A stretch of DNA of 64,000 nt, from positions 1-64,000 of the forward strand of contig CALHAX010000002.1 of the NCBI GenBank assembly GCA_937931785.1, given 5' to 3'. Source of the DNA: an uncultured Hyphomicrobiaceae bacterium (GTDB lineage: Bacteria > Pseudomonadota > Alphaproteobacteria > Rhizobiales > CALHAX01). Below the pieces are notes generated by a model that ran no database searches, was not told where the DNA came from, and saw only the letters and a program-made list of their open reading frames with translations. Shown here piece after piece: positions 41,844 through 48,788 of this stretch (positions are counted from its first letter, which is position 1; every line of letters starts with the position of its first letter). The position numbers were made by a program, and so were the translations under genes.

Positions 41844-43250
41844 TCACCCCACTTCATACCACGTGCCCATGCCCCCGGCCTGATGCGCAAGCATGTGGCA
41901 GTGCAGCATCCACTTGCCCGGATTGTGCGCATGAAAAGCCACCGTGATGGTCTCATCCGGGGCCATGTAAACCGTGTCACGCCAGTGCGGAAGCGGCGCG
42001 CGCTTTGAGTGCTGTATTTCCCGCACATGGTGCCCGTGAAAATGCATCGCATGGGGCCACGCTGTGCCATTGCGCATGCGAACATGAACCGTCTTGCCAA
42101 GAGCAATCTGCGTCAGCGGTTTGTCGGGCATTCCCGCAATGCCGTTGAACGCCCAGACCTTACGGTGTTCACGCGCAAGCGTTCGAACATCGTAAGTCTT
42201 GCCACGATACATCGCCGATTCGAACCAGGATCGCGCGCCCCCTGTCATATCGAGCTCGACAACGATTGGGTTGCTGTCGTCCAGCGCCGTCGGCATCGGA
42301 TTCGCAGGCAGGCGCGTTACGCTCTGAAGCGACGTTTTACGCTGTCGCTCTGTTGGATGATAAACAATCTTCCCCGCTTCAAGTTTTTCTCTCCCGGTAT
42401 CCACGAGGATCGGAGATTGCGAGCCGACATCCTGAACGCAATCCAGCATGACGTCCGCACGTTGCGCCGGCGCAAGTTGTATTTCACCCCCGGACGGCTT
42501 GAACGGATCAACCGGTTGGCCATCTAACGCTACAACAATCGGACTGTGTCCACCAAAACCAACAGAGATTACCCGCGCGTTTGCCGCATTGATCAGGCGC
42601 AATCGCACACGCTGTCCTGCCTTCACAGGCACATCATGCGTAAACGCTCCGTTCACTGTCAGAATGTTACCGAGTCGCCCACTGTGGGACAGGTCGTGGA
42701 AATTTCCAAAGCTTGCTTCATCAATGGCGCCATCATCGCCAATACGCCAGTCGTCGAACATCAGCACAAGATCCTGATCCACCGTCGGAGGTTTCTCCTC
42801 TTCGACAATGAACGGACCATAGAGACCACGCGCAAGCTGTTCCCACGTCCGGTTGTGCGGATGATACCAATAGGTTCCGGCGTCGGGCGGCGTGAAACGG
42901 TAAGCAAAGGTTTTGTTGGCTGCAACGGGCGCTTGGGTCAGGTTCGCAACGCCGTCCATCGCATTGTCAATCCGGATGCCGTGCCAGTGGATGGTGGTCG
43001 GTTGCGGTAAAGCGTTGAGCAAGTCTGCCGCGAACGGTTTACCTTGAGGTGTACGGATTTCCTGCCCCGGAACACGTCCATTGTATCCCCAGATGGGTGT
43101 TTCAGGTTGCCCGGTTTCTAACAGATGGGCTTTGCCTGTACGCGCCTCCAGTTGAAGTGCCGTTCCAGTCTGCGCCATGCCGCGGGTTGCAAATGGAAGC
43201 GTCGCAGCTGATGCGGCCAGCCCCGTGATCACAGATCGGCGAGTCGTCAT
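41844..43250 (-). CDS. Multicopper oxidase (CueO-like)
   Basis: The 468-residue product has a Tat signal (MTTRRSVITGLAASAATLPFATRGMAQ) and the four copper-ligand motifs: HWHGIR, YWYHPHNRTW, HAMHFHGHHVRE and MLHCHMLAHQAGGMGTWYEV. The order is that of three-domain oxidases related to CueO and bilirubin oxidase-like proteins. A CueO-type methionine-rich insert is not obvious. It should act in the periplasm, probably in copper tolerance or metal oxidation. No copper pump or chaperone gene lies beside it. Confidence 0.92.
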   Translation of the reverse strand: MTTRRSVITGLAASAATLPFATRGMAQTGTALQLEARTGKAHLLETGQPETPIWGYNGRVPGQEIRTPQGKPFAADLLNALPQPTTIHWHGIRIDNAMDGVANLTQAPVAANKTFAYRFTPPDAGTYWYHPHNRTWEQLARGLYGPFIVEEEKPPTVDQDLVLMFDDWRIGDDGAIDEASFGNFHDLSHSGRLGNILTVNGAFTHDVPVKAGQRVRLRLINAANARVISVGFGGHSPIVVALDGQPVDPFKPSGGEIQLAPAQRADVMLDCVQDVGSQSPILVDTGREKLEAGKIVYHPTERQRKTSLQSVTRLPANPMPTALDDSNPIVVELDMTGGARSWFESAMYRGKTYDVRTLAREHRKVWAFNGIAGMPDKPLTQIALGKTVHVRMRNGTAWPHAMHFHGHHVREIQHSKRAPLPHWRDTVYMAPDETITVAFHAHNPGKWMLHCHMLAHQAGGMGTWYEVG

Positions 43251-43313
43251 GGCGGGATTCCTCCTGGTTGTCAGGCATGCGACATTACTCCTGAAGCGGA
43301 TCTTACAACACGC

Positions 43314-43733
43314 TCATTCTCCCACCAAATGGATCACCACATGCCTGCGGTGCGGGCGTGTCCGATGTTCGAAGAGATACACACCCTGCCACGTCCCAAG
43401 CAACGGTGCGCCATCGGCAACAGGGATCGCAAGCGAGACATCTGTCAGGGCCGCCTTGATGTGCGCAGGCATGTCGTCGGGCCCTTCTGACGTGTGGCGT
43501 AACCACTCCATCCCTTCCGGCACAAGACGCGAGAAGAACGCGGCAAGATCAGTTTGCACGTCTGGATCTGCATTCTCCTGGATTGTGAGAGATGCCGAAG
43601 TGTGACGACAGTAGACAGTGATCTGCCCCGTGACGATGGCGCTTTGACGTACAAAATCCGCGACCTCGCGCGTGATCTCATAAAGTCCCTGACCGGTCGT
43701 TGCGACGTCGATCTGCGTCTGCGCCTGTTTCAT
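43314..43733 (-). CDS. yjbQ: YjbQ family protein (UPF0047)
   Basis: The 139-residue product matches the UPF0047/YjbQ family: QITVYCRHTSASLTIQENADPDV, SEGPDDMPAHIKAAL and GAPLLGTWQGVYLFEHR. Family members bind metal and some show weak thiamin-phosphate synthase activity; the physiological role is unclear. It lies 9 bp after the DUF1989 gene on the same strand, so it is probably co-transcribed. Confidence 0.93.
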   Translation of the reverse strand: MKQAQTQIDVATTGQGLYEITREVADFVRQSAIVTGQITVYCRHTSASLTIQENADPDVQTDLAAFFSRLVPEGMEWLRHTSEGPDDMPAHIKAALTDVSLAIPVADGAPLLGTWQGVYLFEHRTRPHRRHVVIHLVGE

Positions 43734-43742
43734 GGCGACTAC

Positions 43743-44603
43743 TCAGGCGCCATGGCTTCGGGAATAACTCGAGCGCTTCGGAGCTGTCCAGTTTGCCAAG
43801 GTGCCATCCGCCGGGCGATAAATCTCGACCAGGAGTGGTGCACATGCGGCCTCCTCGCTCGAATGCGTGGTCGAACAGTCGCCTCCCGGACAGGCAGACA
43901 AACCACCCAAAAGATCGATCTCCGCAAATATCTCAAGATAGTCTCCCGAGCGCACAGGACTTGCCTTCATGAAGTACTGCTTCGTGTCCAGCGTGAACCC
44001 TGTGCACATGAATACATTCAACACGTCATGGACATGCGGCTCCGCTTCATCGAGGCTCAGATCTGTGGCCTTGGCCAACGCACGCGTCAGGTTCGAATGA
44101 CAGCAATAGTGATATTCATCTCCCGCCAGCAGGACATTGGTATAAGGATCACACCGCGTCCCGAGCACATCGTGCACGCTGCCACCGAATGCGTCCCACC
44201 CGTACCAATCGAGCGTGTCGTGCGTCACCGTCGCCAACGGACGGAAGTGCGGCAGGTTGCTCCAGAGCTTGTCACCGGTGCTCACATGCGTGCCGTGCAA
44301 CGCACGCGTCTTGCCACTAAAAAAACGTTCTGAAATATCGTGAGCGTTCCACAGATTGAGGTCACCAACTTGCGGCCCGTCCGGACATACGATCCGGAAG
44401 AAGTGCCCTTGCGGCACGCGAAATGTTTCCGCATCACGCGGTTGCACGGTAACGGCGTCAATCTGTTCCATGCTGTCACGCGCTGCAGCGAACACCGACG
44501 GATCGTAGGCAGGCAGCGTATCGACCGGATAACAGACGACAGGCTCAACCGCTTTGCGCGCGGCGGCATCTGACGGAGCAGCAGTCTCTGGCTTGTATTT
44601 CAT
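43743..44603 (-). CDS. DUF1989 urea carboxylase-associated family protein
   Basis: The 286-residue product matches the DUF1989 family (often called urea carboxylase/amidolyase-associated): GHFFRIVCPDGPQVGDLNLWNAHDISERF, GTHVSTGDKLWSNLP, CHSNLTRAL and NVFMCTGFTLDTKQYFMKASP, plus the Cys pair SACPGGDCS near the C-terminus. Cupin-like metal sites are expected (Cys/His-rich). A urea carboxylase gene is absent here. It lies between YjbQ and an amidotransferase-like gene, all minus strand. Confidence 0.9.
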   Translation of the reverse strand: MKYKPETAAPSDAAARKAVEPVVCYPVDTLPAYDPSVFAAARDSMEQIDAVTVQPRDAETFRVPQGHFFRIVCPDGPQVGDLNLWNAHDISERFFSGKTRALHGTHVSTGDKLWSNLPHFRPLATVTHDTLDWYGWDAFGGSVHDVLGTRCDPYTNVLLAGDEYHYCCHSNLTRALAKATDLSLDEAEPHVHDVLNVFMCTGFTLDTKQYFMKASPVRSGDYLEIFAEIDLLGGLSACPGGDCSTTHSSEEAACAPLLVEIYRPADGTLANWTAPKRSSYSRSHGA

Positions 44604-44628
44604 GCGCTTTCAAAACCTGTGATGCGGT

Positions 44629-45345
44629 TCACGTCCGAGCTTCCGTCATGAAATTGTTATAGAGCCGTTCAGATGCTGAAAGAAACTCCGGCATCACCGC
44701 ATCCGCCTCAGCTTTGATCCGGGCATGTGCGCCTTCGCCAAGTGTTGTCTCAAGCGCATCCTTGTATTCCGGCACGCAACCCCACGTGTCGATAGTCTCG
44801 TCCTCCACCTCGACGTGGTACTGCATGGACCAGGCGAGATCACCAACGCGCATCGCCTGCACGCGGCAAGCATCTGAACTCGCCAACACAACCGCATCCT
44901 CCGGCTCCTGCGCCACCCGTACACCATGCCACTGCAAGCATTTCTGAGAGGCCGGCAATCCAGCCATGATAGGATCGGATTTGCCCGCATCTGTCAGATG
45001 TACATCAAGAATGCCAATCTCTGCTGGCCGTTGAGGACCACATGTTCCACCCAACGCATCGGCCAACAACTGGTGCCCGAGACAAAACCCGAGATACGGT
45101 TTCTTCAACTCCCGGACCCAGCGGCGAATGGCTGCTTTTTCGTCAACCAGCCAGGGATTATCTTCAATATCCCAAACATCCATCGCACCCCCCATAACCC
45201 AGAGCGCGTCGTAGTTCTCCAGCGGTGGAATTTTCTCCCCTTCATCCAGCTCGACAGCATCCCACTCTATACCATCCGCTGCGAGAAACTTTCGCAATGA
45301 ACCGGGATGCTCGCAGGCGATGTGTTGAAAGACGAGAAGGCGCAT
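44629..45345 (-). CDS. Class-I glutamine amidotransferase-like protein
   Basis: The 238-residue product resembles GMP-synthase-type stand-alone amidotransferases: WVMGGAMDVWD, FCLGHQLLADALGGT (nucleophilic Cys), and MQYHVEVEDETIDTW (His, Glu). It starts MRLLVFQHIACEHPG. Single-domain members of this group often act on unknown amide donors or as gamma-glutamyl hydrolases. It is followed by the DUF1989 and YjbQ genes on the same strand (gap about 25 bp), which suggests one transcription unit. Confidence 0.9.
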   Translation of the reverse strand: MRLLVFQHIACEHPGSLRKFLAADGIEWDAVELDEGEKIPPLENYDALWVMGGAMDVWDIEDNPWLVDEKAAIRRWVRELKKPYLGFCLGHQLLADALGGTCGPQRPAEIGILDVHLTDAGKSDPIMAGLPASQKCLQWHGVRVAQEPEDAVVLASSDACRVQAMRVGDLAWSMQYHVEVEDETIDTWGCVPEYKDALETTLGEGAHARIKAEADAVMPEFLSASERLYNNFMTEART

Positions 45346-45351
45346 GGTGTT

Positions 45352-45816
45352 TCACTCCGTCGAACGATGGTGCGATGACGAACCCAGAACACCGCGAACC
45401 TGCATGCGATGGGCATACCAGACAATGAGACCGGACAGAACAAGAATGACAAGCGAAAACACAAACTCAAACGGACCGGCAATATCAGTGAACGACGTCT
45501 CGGACAAAATGAACATATGCAAAGCTCCAACCCCGGTTCCGATGAGCGCAAGCCAGAAAACAGGAACTGCAAGGCGATGACGCAGGAGCAGCAGGACCGA
45601 CCCGATCACGCCGCCCCACACACCGATGGCCCAACCGGCAACCATCCAGACTGGAAAGCCATAGAAATACTTGAGTTGGTCCGGCGTGAACTGGCTCATG
45701 TAGGCCTCATTGCGCATTTGCGTCATCGTGTAATCCAGAGCACCCATTGCGCTCCAAAGCAGATAGAGGCCGCCAGTAACCCAAAGGTGCCATGGCGTTT
45801 TTATGTGGTCCGACAT
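45352..45816 (-). CDS. Hypothetical four-helix membrane protein
   Basis: The 154-residue product has four predicted membrane helices: LWVTGGLYLLWSAMGALDY, FPVWMVAGWAIGVWGGVIG, LAVPVFWLALIGTGVGALHMF and FVFSLVILVLSGLIVWYAH. Between the first two lies the loop MRNEAYMSQFTPDQLKYFYG, a pattern seen in a family of uncharacterised small membrane proteins in alphaproteobacteria. The C-terminus is His/Ser-rich. It precedes the amidotransferase gene by about 6 bp on the same strand. Confidence 0.8.
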   Translation of the reverse strand: MSDHIKTPWHLWVTGGLYLLWSAMGALDYTMTQMRNEAYMSQFTPDQLKYFYGFPVWMVAGWAIGVWGGVIGSVLLLLRHRLAVPVFWLALIGTGVGALHMFILSETSFTDIAGPFEFVFSLVILVLSGLIVWYAHRMQVRGVLGSSSHHRSTE

Positions 45817-46016: not shown

Positions 46017-47060
46017 ATGGAATTTTCCATTCAACTTTCCGCCTACTATCCTGACAAGTCGTATGGCGGAGACCGCGTCTATAACGATATGCTGGAGCAA
46101 GCCGTGCTTTGCGATCGGCTTGGCTACGATGCGGTATCCATCACGGAGCATCACCTCATCAACATTCTGATGATGCCGGCTCCGTTGCAGTTCGCCGTGA
46201 AGATCGCCAGCATGACAGAACGCATCAAGATCATGACTGCGATCGCCGTGCTTCCTTTGCACGACATGCGGATCTACGCAGGTGAACTGGTATGCGCGGA
46301 TATCTTCACGGATGGACGTTTGATGCTTGGCGTCGGCCGCGGGGCCTATGCTTTTGAAATGGAACGTCTTGGCGTGCCGATGGACGAAACCCGAGACAAG
46401 TTCAATGAGTCCCTCGATGTCCTGCAGGCTCTTCTCAGCGAGGAAGAAGTCTCATGGAATGGAAAATATTACACCTTCGCCCCGCTCACGATCATGCCTC
46501 GCCCCGTACGTCCCGGCGGGCCACCCCTCATGATGGCGGTCATGGTTCCCGAAGGAATTTATCACTGCACGAAACGCGGGTTTCATATCCAGACCACCCC
46601 CCTGTCCGGTGACCATAAACACATGCTGGAACAGGTCGACGCCTTCAATCGTGGCAAGACTGACCGCGACGACGGCGGCAAGGATCTGACACTAACGTTA
46701 TCCCGCGTCGGTTTTCTCGCCCGCGATGCAGCCGATGCCAAACGCAAGGTTGCGCAGGCACACGATTACTACAGCCGCTTCGACAACGTTTTCACCGGGC
46801 CCGGTATCGTGACGAACGGGATGATCGAGCCCCTCCCCCGTAAGCAAACCGCAGAAGAGCTCGGCGAAAGCCTCCTCATCGGAACACCGCAACAGCTCAT
46901 CGACAAACTCGCCCCGTATGCAGAAGCCGGTGTTGATCGTGTGATCGTCAACATCAACTTCGGTATGGAACAATCAGAGCAGCTCGATTGCATCCAGCAG
47001 TTTGCCGAAGAGGTGATGCCGCATTTTGCAGGGCAGACAAACGCCGTCGCTGCCGAATAG
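46017..47060 (+). CDS. LLM-class flavin-dependent oxidoreductase
   Basis: The 347-residue product is a luciferase-like monooxygenase: VLCDRLGYDAVSITEHHL, IKIMTAIAVLPLHDMRIYAGEL, GRLMLGVGRGAYAFEMERLG, FNESLDVLQALL and a C-terminal GTPQQLIDKLAPYAEAGVDRVIV. It uses FMNH2 (or F420) and oxygen or other acceptor; the substrate is unknown. The ATG at 46017 (MEFSIQLSAYYPD) is chosen; another ATG lies 36 bp upstream. It leads a three-gene operon with a tautomerase and a hydrolase, 11 bp before the tautomerase. Confidence 0.92.
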   Translation: MEFSIQLSAYYPDKSYGGDRVYNDMLEQAVLCDRLGYDAVSITEHHLINILMMPAPLQFAVKIASMTERIKIMTAIAVLPLHDMRIYAGELVCADIFTDGRLMLGVGRGAYAFEMERLGVPMDETRDKFNESLDVLQALLSEEEVSWNGKYYTFAPLTIMPRPVRPGGPPLMMAVMVPEGIYHCTKRGFHIQTTPLSGDHKHMLEQVDAFNRGKTDRDDGGKDLTLTLSRVGFLARDAADAKRKVAQAHDYYSRFDNVFTGPGIVTNGMIEPLPRKQTAEELGESLLIGTPQQLIDKLAPYAEAGVDRVIVNINFGMEQSEQLDCIQQFAEEVMPHFAGQTNAVAAE

Positions 47061-47071
47061 GAGAGCACAAC

Positions 47072-47263
47072 ATGCCGGTAATCAAGGTCGAACTCCTGTC
47101 AGGACGCACCGTCGAGCAAAAGCGCGAACTGGTGAAGGAATTCACGGAAAGCTATCTCCGCATCTGTGGCGGCAAGCGCGAGGGACTCAACATCATCCTG
47201 CAGGATGTGCACAGCGAGAATTGGGCCGTTGGAGGCACGCTCTGTTCGGATCAACAGCCATGA
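47072..47263 (+). CDS. 4-oxalocrotonate tautomerase-like protein
   Basis: The 63-residue product starts MPVIKVELLSGRTVEQKRELVKEFTE; removal of Met exposes Pro-1, the catalytic base of the 4-OT/XylH family. Length is normal for the hexameric 4-OT type. It has VHSENWAVGG in the C-terminal half, but the exact substrate is unclear. Its TGA overlaps the hydrolase ATG by four bases (ATGA). Lying between an LLM oxygenase and an alpha/beta hydrolase, it probably acts in a degradation pathway. Confidence 0.92.
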   Translation: MPVIKVELLSGRTVEQKRELVKEFTESYLRICGGKREGLNIILQDVHSENWAVGGTLCSDQQP

Positions 47264-48039
47264 CGCACACGATCGACTGCGACTACACCATCGAAGGCGA
47301 TGGTCCGCCGCTATTTCTGATCCACGGCATCGGAGCGGCCCGCGACACCTGGCGTTTCGTCGCGCCACAACTCAAACCGCACTTCACCGTGATCACCTAT
47401 GATCTGCGCGGCCACGGCACGTCTCCGAAGCCCGAAGGTGTGTTCGATCTCGACGAACTCGTGAACGATCTCGAACGTCTGCGGGAACGCACCGGCATCG
47501 AAAAGGCCCACTTTGCCGGTCACTCGCTTGGCGGCATGATCGGCCCCGCCTACGCCCGCCGCTATCCAGAACGCGTTCTCTCTCTCGGCCTCTTGTCAAC
47601 GGCCGCTGGACGCACTGAGGACGACAGTCAAAAGGTCTGGGCCGTGGTCCACGCCATGGAAGAAAAAGGTGTCGCCAACGTGCTGAGCACGCTTGTCGAC
47701 CGCTGGTACACCGACGCGTTCATTGCCGCCCACAACGACATCGTGCAACGCCGTTTGAAACAGGTCATCGACACCGATTCCGAAATTTTTCTGAACGTCT
47801 TTCGCATCTATGCTGGCACGGAGATGATGCCTTGGTTGAACGAGATCACCGCACCGTCCCTCATCCTCACGGGCGAAAATGACGGCGGGTGCAATCTCCG
47901 CCTGAACAAAGGCATTCACACCGCCATGCCAAACAGCGAACTCGTGATCCTGCCTGATTACAAGCATTCGTTGCTGCTGGAAGCACCAGACGAGGTGGCA
48001 CGTGAAATGTTGCGATTTCTCTCACGCGCGAATGCATGA
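47260..48039 (+). CDS. Alpha/beta hydrolase
   Basis: The 259-residue product has the lipase/haloperoxidase-type fold: LFLIHGIGAARDTW (oxyanion region), VITYDLRGHGTSPKP, nucleophile Ser89 in AGHSLGGMIG, Asp in ILTGENDGG and His in DYKHSLLLE. It resembles 3-oxoadipate enol-lactonase or ring-fission hydrolases such as MhpC/BphD, though the exact substrate cannot be told. It overlaps the tautomerase by 4 bp, so the three genes form one unit. Confidence 0.92.
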   Translation: MTHTIDCDYTIEGDGPPLFLIHGIGAARDTWRFVAPQLKPHFTVITYDLRGHGTSPKPEGVFDLDELVNDLERLRERTGIEKAHFAGHSLGGMIGPAYARRYPERVLSLGLLSTAAGRTEDDSQKVWAVVHAMEEKGVANVLSTLVDRWYTDAFIAAHNDIVQRRLKQVIDTDSEIFLNVFRIYAGTEMMPWLNEITAPSLILTGENDGGCNLRLNKGIHTAMPNSELVILPDYKHSLLLEAPDEVAREMLRFLSRANA

Positions 48040-48059: not shown

Positions 48060-48458
48060 TCACGCCTTCTTGAGTACCTTCGGTTTGCGCTTCCCGTCCA
48101 CCGACACGAACGTGAACGTGCCCTCCGTGACCTTCACATCTTCACCGATACGATTACGCAACGCCCACGCTTCCATCTGCACCGTGATCGAGGTTCGCCC
48201 CGTACGCGTGATATCGCAATAAACAGACAGCACATCGCCCACAAACACGGGCGCCAGAAAGCTCATCGCGTCGATCGCAACCGTGACAACCCGTCCGCCC
48301 GCCCGCTCTGCAGCACACACCGCACCGGCCTTGTCCATCTCCGTCAGAACCCAGCCACCAAAAATGTCACCTGCCGGATTGGTATCCGCTGGCATCGTCA
48401 ACGTACGCGTTGTCAATTGTCCGCATGGCGCCATCTTGCGTTTTGGTTTCTCAGCCAT
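48060..48458 (-). CDS. Acyl-CoA thioesterase, YciA-like hotdog protein
   Basis: The 132-residue product has the hotdog-fold signature TMPADTNPAGDIFGGWVLTEMDKAGAV, then VAIDAMSFLAPVFVGDVLSVYCDI, as in YciA-type broad-specificity acyl-CoA thioesterases. Asp/Thr/Asn positions of the active site are kept. The ATG at 48458 is used; an ATG at 48473 is possible. It is convergent with the LLM-tautomerase-hydrolase operon and may release acids from CoA esters. Confidence 0.93.
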   Translation of the reverse strand: MAEKPKRKMAPCGQLTTRTLTMPADTNPAGDIFGGWVLTEMDKAGAVCAAERAGGRVVTVAIDAMSFLAPVFVGDVLSVYCDITRTGRTSITVQMEAWALRNRIGEDVKVTEGTFTFVSVDGKRKPKVLKKA

Positions 48459-48542
48459 TGTCCCCTCCCTCATAACTCCAGAATTTGTGCTATACACCGG
48501 TTGAAGCATTGCCAATGTCATGTATGCCGGAACGCACACCCT

Positions 48543-48788
48543 ATGAATCTCGTCGAACATGCTGAAATTCGCGATCTTTTAGACGAACTGAAGCCTATCG
48601 CGGAAGAACTGACACCCAACGAGCGTGAAATGTACACGCACCTTGCAGGCAAATACGAAACGCCAACACAAGGCGCGTTCGATGACAAAATCTGTCTGGA
48701 GGTCATGTTGCGCAATGTTGGCATACGTCGCGGCATGGGCATCAAACCGGCAGACGCATCACGCGAGATCGATCTTCCCCGAAAGTAA
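48543..48788 (+). CDS. Hypothetical small cytoplasmic protein
   Basis: The 81-residue product reads MNLVEHAEIRDLLDELKPI, PNEREMYTHLAGKYETPTQGAFDDKICLEVMLRNVGIRRGMGI. It is helical and charged without a signal or recognised domain. The frame stays open upstream, antisense to the thioesterase, but the ATG at 48543 is a natural start. It is divergent from the thioesterase. I cannot assign a function. Confidence 0.5.
   Translation: MNLVEHAEIRDLLDELKPIAEELTPNEREMYTHLAGKYETPTQGAFDDKICLEVMLRNVGIRRGMGIKPADASREIDLPRK

Follow-up and report, generated by a model that had tools for sequence, protein, structure and literature searches.

An LLM-class oxygenase, a 4-OT-type tautomerase and a PcaD-like hydrolase as a candidate ring-opening unit in an uncultured Hyphomicrobiaceae bacterium

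Three closely packed genes of an uncultured Hyphomicrobiaceae bacterium raise the question of whether an LLM-class oxygenase, a 63-residue tautomerase and an alpha/beta hydrolase work on one compound and, if so, on what kind. The genes lie in a window of 64,000 nucleotides, the whole stretch of DNA that was analysed (contig CALHAX010000002.1, positions 1 to 64,000).

The trio and its protein families

The LLM and tautomerase (4-OT) genes were separated by 11 bases, and the 4-OT and hydrolase genes overlapped by 4 bases (ATGA). These distances, the coordinates and gene order (Table 1), Pro-1 of the 4-OT and Ser89 of the hydrolase had been reported in an initial annotation, and all were confirmed from the sequence. 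Its family assignments (LLM, tautomerase, alpha/beta hydrolase) were borne out by PF00296, PF01361 and PF00561. An NCBIfam cut-off was reached by none of the three proteins. Among the open reading frames of the window, searched with Pfam and NCBIfam, a reductase, transporter, regulator or dehydrogenase was not found adjacent to the trio. A promoter scan found none (mean in shuffled sequences, 0.9).

The YciA-type thioesterase had been put forward as a relevant neighbour. Its gene and that of the membrane protein upstream of the trio had tblastn matches (E 1e-3) in none of the 23 other loci searched, and both were therefore placed outside the unit. Further upstream, the DUF1989 protein showed weak likeness to urea amidolyase-associated proteins.

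Table 1. Genes of the trio and their neighbours in the window
Feature	Position	Strand	Family match
LLM-class (bacterial luciferase family) flavin-dependent oxygenase, 347 aa	46017-47060	+	PF00296, E 6.6e-47
4-OT-type tautomerase, 63 aa	47072-47263	+	PF01361, E 5.8e-15
PcaD-like alpha/beta hydrolase, 259 aa, nucleophile Ser89 in GHSLGG	47260-48039	+	PF00561, E 8e-33
YciA-type hotdog protein	48060-48560	opposite to trio	NF007970, 130 bits (cut-off 162)
Membrane protein	45352-45816	opposite to trio	no Pfam match
Gene row upstream of the trio: multicopper oxidase, YjbQ, DUF1989 protein, class-I glutamine amidotransferase	41844-45345	-	

The LLM protein matched PF00296 with 160.8 bits (cut-off 27.9) over model positions 8-314 of 314 and thus belongs to this family. 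Its best NCBIfam match, a subfamily model, scored 101 bits (cut-off 462; among the best 25 of 29 families). Mean column identity in the alignment of the LLM subfamily was 70% (19 rows). Invariant positions of the LLM include Glu44-His45-His46, Asn49 and Arg85. The structural model had a pLDDT of 81.8, with weak stretches at residues 46-51 and 341-347, and its fold matched the LLM oxygenases 2i7g, 8cbb (a luciferase) and 7bip (RslO1). The nearest solved relatives were flavin monooxygenases or luciferases. As to the cofactor, the flavin reductase present in two larger operons of relatives may point indirectly to FMNH2, as against F420.

The 4-OT starts with Met-Pro, so that Pro-1 would be exposed after removal of Met; its best NCBIfam match scored 73.7 bits (cut-off 80). 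With numbering from Pro-1, both Pro-1 and Arg-11 were kept in all eight aligned rows. Position 39 was Arg in none of the eight (Asn in the window protein) and position 50 was Trp in all eight. The PDB relative 3abf (E 4.8e-12) has Arg at the position aligned to 39. Pro-1, Arg-11, Arg-39 and Phe-50 have known roles in 4-OT, and the residues found at 39 and 50 speak against 4-oxalocrotonate itself as substrate. A simple 4-oxalocrotonate tautomerase was rejected, Arg-39 and Phe-50 being missing.

The hydrolase scored 144.8 bits against PcaD (TIGR02427, cut-off 255.85; among the best 25 of 33 NCBIfam families) and 70.4 bits against RutD (TIGR03611, cut-off 238.5); with both defining scores out of reach, simple membership of either family was rejected. 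Ser89, Asp208 and His236 were invariant in 18 aligned rows, with a presumed role for Asp208. In the profile search PcaD was closest, and the vitamin B6-pathway hydrolase 3kxp also matched (E 2.2e-17). The top PDB fold match of the structural model (pLDDT 93.0) was the PcaD enol-lactonase 2xua (TM 0.89). Further down the list were butenolide hydrolases, receptors of the D14/KAI2 kind and the RutD structure 3v48. Alpha/beta hydrolase folds are generic, and this search returned 1790 PDB matches at E 0.001.

Conservation of the LLM-hydrolase pair

At E 1e-70 the LLM was found in at least 18 of 397 genomes of the order; identity was about 50% or higher in 16 of them and no more than about 37-42% in two. 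At E 1e-120 it was found in at least six of 385 genomes of the class and at least three of 398 genomes of the phylum. These counts include the genome of the window and are lower bounds, with up to five candidates scored per genome. A scan of genome contigs gave two relatives. Among plasmids, a single record was hit, that of Roseovarius pelagicus, at five places. One of the loci (L004) was from Granulosicoccus, a Gammaproteobacterium.

Among 28 LLM genes sharing about 50% identity or above, that of the window among them, 26 had the orthologous hydrolase next on the same strand, which is more than chance. Of the two exceptions, one (L041) was cut by a contig end and the other was real: a second Roseovarius copy (LLM gene L026:15001-16053, 65% identical to that of the window) had no hydrolase next to it, and the genes that followed were those of a choline dehydrogenase and of an ABC transporter (L026:15001-22860). 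Pairwise identities of LLM and hydrolase co-varied across 17 loci (r 0.74, a value that no permutation of 5000 reached), as would be expected of genes inherited together.

Of the 26 paired loci, 13 had a 4-OT gene between the LLM and the hydrolase (window, L026, L029, L030, L033, L037-L040, L049, L058-L060). No 4-OT match was found between the genes in the other 13 (L004, L005, L027, L028, L031, L032, L034-L036, L042, L055-L057), where the spacing was too small to fit one. In a phylogeny of 33 LLM proteins, presence or absence of 4-OT was marked for 25 (13 with, 12 without; the incomplete L042 was left out), and this label changed six times, at least five of these by well-supported branches. 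Two loci of the same genus differed, with 4-OT in one (L029) and not in the other (L031). Since 4-OT was found in half of the paired loci and changed about six times on the tree, the LLM-hydrolase pair was taken as the core and the trio as one form of it. The initial annotation had held that genomes with the LLM gene and without the other two would speak against its trio; on this point the hydrolase stood and the tautomerase did only in part. When 23 of these genomes were searched with a 4-OT profile, 16 had a match that reached E 1e-6. None was found at this threshold in seven (G037, G035, G077, G143, G113, G046, G696; three of the seven were 61-76% complete), and there the step would therefore not be covered by a close relative encoded elsewhere.

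A LysR gene lay divergently upstream of the LLM in 14 of the 28 loci (the gene of L027 itself or one 45-79% identical to it; family checked in two). In the genome of the window a LysR orthologue was not found at E 1e-40. The remaining neighbours varied. An ABC transporter at L030 came with a binding protein of amino-acid type, and further ABC transporter parts lay at L037; EamA transporters were seen at L035 and L039, GST genes at L028 and L037, and a DHDPS-family protein at L035.

Larger operons and known ring-opening systems

On the Roseovarius pelagicus plasmid the trio was part of a larger operon on one strand: binding protein, flavin reductase, LLM, 4-OT, hydrolase, two permeases, ATPase and succinate-semialdehyde dehydrogenase (SSADH). 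The gene order was identical, again on one strand, in L060, a locus whose genome belongs to the same phylum but to another class. A TetR gene lay beyond the binding protein in Roseovarius, and a TetR-like gene, read by eye, beyond the dehydrogenase in L060. The binding proteins, of oligopeptide type (SBP_bac_5), were 59% identical between the two operons and the reductases 42%. The dehydrogenases were only 33% identical, so the last step may differ between the two. The Roseovarius dehydrogenase scored 458 bits against the SSADH model (cut-off 646), and for these two reasons the name succinate semialdehyde rests on annotation.

These operons invite comparison with the pathway that breaks down the plant alkaloid trigonelline (tgn), in which a two-component LLM oxygenase (TgnA/TgnB), an alpha/beta hydrolase, TgnC and a succinate-semialdehyde dehydrogenase take part; the annotated tgn cluster used for comparison is in a record of Acinetobacter sp. 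PK01. The trio shares the enzyme kinds and the order of their logic, and the larger operons add a TgnA-like reductase and an aldehyde dehydrogenase. The reductases of these operons share 34-36% identity with annotated TgnA along most of their length, which points to an electron supply of the same kind. In contrast, the trio LLM was 27% identical to TgnB (E 7e-35) and the hydrolase 26% to the tgn hydrolase, and the trio has a 4-OT and no TgnC. The initial annotation knew of no named pathway with this trio. A curated family naming the unit was indeed not found, but the trio is less isolated than was thought, because larger operons exist and the scheme resembles tgn.

Neither a TgnA reductase nor a TgnC dehydrogenase was found near the window trio; both kinds occurred on contig C125 of the same genome (L071:7568-12068). 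There an amino-acid-synthesis family protein, hydrolase, flavin reductase, LLM and aldehyde dehydrogenase followed each other in the gene order of the PK01 record, which was retrieved when the C125 LLM was used as query against plasmids and in which the match is annotated tgnB. Identities to the annotated tgn proteins were 67% for the LLM (TgnB), 61% for the dehydrogenase (TgnC; cut by the contig end), 37% for the hydrolase and 38% for the reductase. By annotation transfer, the C125 stretch is a tgn-type cluster, and with an LLM 67% identical to annotated TgnB the source organism may use trigonelline. Identity of the trio with tgn was rejected given its 27% to TgnB and this separate cluster in the same genome.

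At E 1e-20 the sole such reductase in the genome of the window was that of the tgn-type cluster; contig C4 encodes a second flavin reductase family protein. Across the fetched flanks of 28 listed reductase places, the trio LLM was found at one (G887), a TgnB relative at two, a relative of the LLM encoded on contig C21 of the window's genome at two, and none of these at 23. The idea that each unit has its own flavin reductase close by was accordingly rejected.

Three other systems were compared. In the Rut pyrimidine pathway the LLM RutA opens the ring, the alpha/beta hydrolase RutD follows and RutF is the reductase. The trio is alike in ring opening by an LLM followed by such a hydrolase, and both the RutD profile and 3v48 matched its hydrolase. 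However, the RutD score was 70 of 238.5 bits and the RutA model was absent among the best 25 of 29 families matched by the LLM; a simple Rut member was rejected on the RutD cut-off. The 4-OT and the PcaD enol-lactonase of the protocatechuate/catechol branches are closest in profile and fold to the tautomerase and the hydrolase of the trio. The hydrolase nevertheless stayed below the PcaD cut-off, and position 39 of the 4-OT was other than Arg in eight of eight rows. Type II Baeyer-Villiger LLM oxygenases (diketocamphane monooxygenases) oxygenate a ring, and lactone hydrolysis follows. The LLM fold and this sequence of oxygenation and hydrolysis are shared, but diketocamphane monooxygenase (5aec, 4uwm) ranked 33 and below in the LLM fold search, at 18% identity.

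Proposed route and alternatives

The likely task of the unit is to open a small ring-shaped nutrient and send the pieces into central metabolism. We give an even chance to the reading of the trio as a small catabolic unit of ring oxygenation, tautomer shift, hydrolysis and semialdehyde oxidation. It builds on the observed gene content, gene order, conservation, families and larger operons, from which we infer the cofactor, the order of steps, the product and a small polar ring as substrate. The initial annotation had linked oxygenation, tautomer shift and hydrolysis in a catabolic-looking unit, and these activities do fit together, with substrate and reaction order conjectural. In the first step the LLM, with O2 and with FMNH2 from a flavin reductase encoded elsewhere in the genome of the window, would oxygenate a small cyclic substrate. 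The unstable product, ring-opened or resembling a lactone, would contain an enol or enamide. The 4-OT-like protein would then speed a keto-enol or double-bond shift in this product, a step that would be spontaneous or otherwise covered in the half of the loci without 4-OT. Cleavage of the enol-lactone, ester or enamide by the PcaD-like hydrolase would yield a short semialdehyde acid. Lastly, an aldehyde dehydrogenase, encoded in the operon in two relatives and elsewhere in the genome of the window, would oxidise the semialdehyde, possibly succinate semialdehyde to succinate. Against this reading stand the window unit itself, bare of an adjacent reductase, transporter, regulator or dehydrogenase and, at E 1e-40, of a LysR orthologue in its genome, the low identity between the dehydrogenases of the larger operons and the sub-threshold SSADH score of the Roseovarius one, the one close LLM without an adjacent hydrolase, and the units that lack 4-OT.

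In one alternative, a tgn-like route would serve another N-heterocycle, e.g., a pyridinium betaine such as the candidate homarine, the LLM opening the N-ring to a formamido-enal and the hydrolase cleaving the enamide. Vitamin B6 breakdown, like that of trigonelline, has an opening of an N-ring and a hydrolase acting on the enamide. The enzyme kinds of the annotated tgn cluster, the TgnA-like reductases of the larger operons and the match of the hydrolase profile to 3kxp all favour this route, but the low identities of LLM and hydrolase to the tgn proteins, and a hydrolase nearer PcaD than 3kxp, argue against it. An operon for homarine may already be published; none was found in the open-licence literature. 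In favour of the route, homarine had no characterised degradation pathway as of 2021 and TgnA/TgnB were unlikely to act on it; against it, growth of R. pomeroyi was weaker on homarine than on trigonelline (PMC8269262). On balance this alternative appears unlikely.

Alternatively, the LLM would hydroxylate a five-membered ring (furan, pyrrole or butenolide), the 4-OT would shift the double bond from one butenolide isomer to another and the enol-lactonase would open the enol-lactone directly to succinate semialdehyde or a homologue. Each enzyme would thus carry out one ordinary step. The fold of the hydrolase, nearest an enol-lactonase with butenolide hydrolases and D14/KAI2 receptors further down, and the aldehyde dehydrogenase of the larger operons are in keeping with this. 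The generic nature of that fold weakens the argument, however, and the oligopeptide-type binding protein suits a charged substrate better. To our knowledge no LLM has such chemistry, which also counts against the route, and we consider it quite unlikely. Between an N-heterocycle and a furan, pyrrole or butenolide as the substrate class, the evidence does not choose.

Detoxification or broad oxidation of stray carbonyl or ring compounds, outside any growth pathway, would make of the pair a type II Baeyer-Villiger oxygenase and a lactone or ester hydrolase. Variable surroundings, a patchy distribution, the nearby GST genes at two loci and diketocamphane monooxygenase among the LLM fold matches would agree with this, but the ABC transporters and aldehyde dehydrogenase of the larger operons do not, and it seems improbable. 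That the three proteins are chance neighbours acting on unrelated compounds is highly improbable, since the hydrolase stayed beside the LLM in nearly all loci despite their differing surroundings, even if the 4-OT came and went.

Ring opening by an LLM oxygenase, a reductase and a hydrolase is already known, and the branch with an optional 4-OT looks new. The trio was not found described in the titles and abstract openings of open-licence literature, which is weak evidence of absence because it is limited to such papers. With somewhat less than even confidence, we propose an undescribed pathway of Alpha- and Gammaproteobacteria in which an LLM and an enol-lactonase-like hydrolase, with an optional 4-OT, convert a small polar ring to a semialdehyde, parallel to and distinct from tgn, with LysR/TetR control of its own and ABC import in the larger versions. 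LLM oxygenases are many and few have known substrates; the conserved pair and the two extended operons with transporter, reductase and dehydrogenase make this substrate findable. Should it prove to be an abundant ring compound of marine or plant origin, its turnover could be followed through these genes as markers. A tautomerase gained and lost within one pathway would test whether it is needed or merely speeds a spontaneous step.

Two further sets of LLM genes were seen. On contig C21 (L074:7303-10303) of the genome of the window, an alpha/beta hydrolase, a 4-OT, an LLM and a GST-like gene lay in a row (hydrolase and GST read by eye). This row was given little weight as a replicate of the trio pattern: its LLM was 21% identical to that of the window, its hydrolase had no significant similarity to the window hydrolase, and its nearest relative (G646) had an LLM and a GST-like gene (by eye) without 4-OT in the fetched flanks. 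Four distant LLM genes (37-42% identity, L043-L046), in none of which such a hydrolase was found adjacent, formed a sister group near polyamine-type ABC transporter genes, with a GntR/aminotransferase regulator also at L043 and an aldehyde dehydrogenase near the SSADH cut-off at L046.
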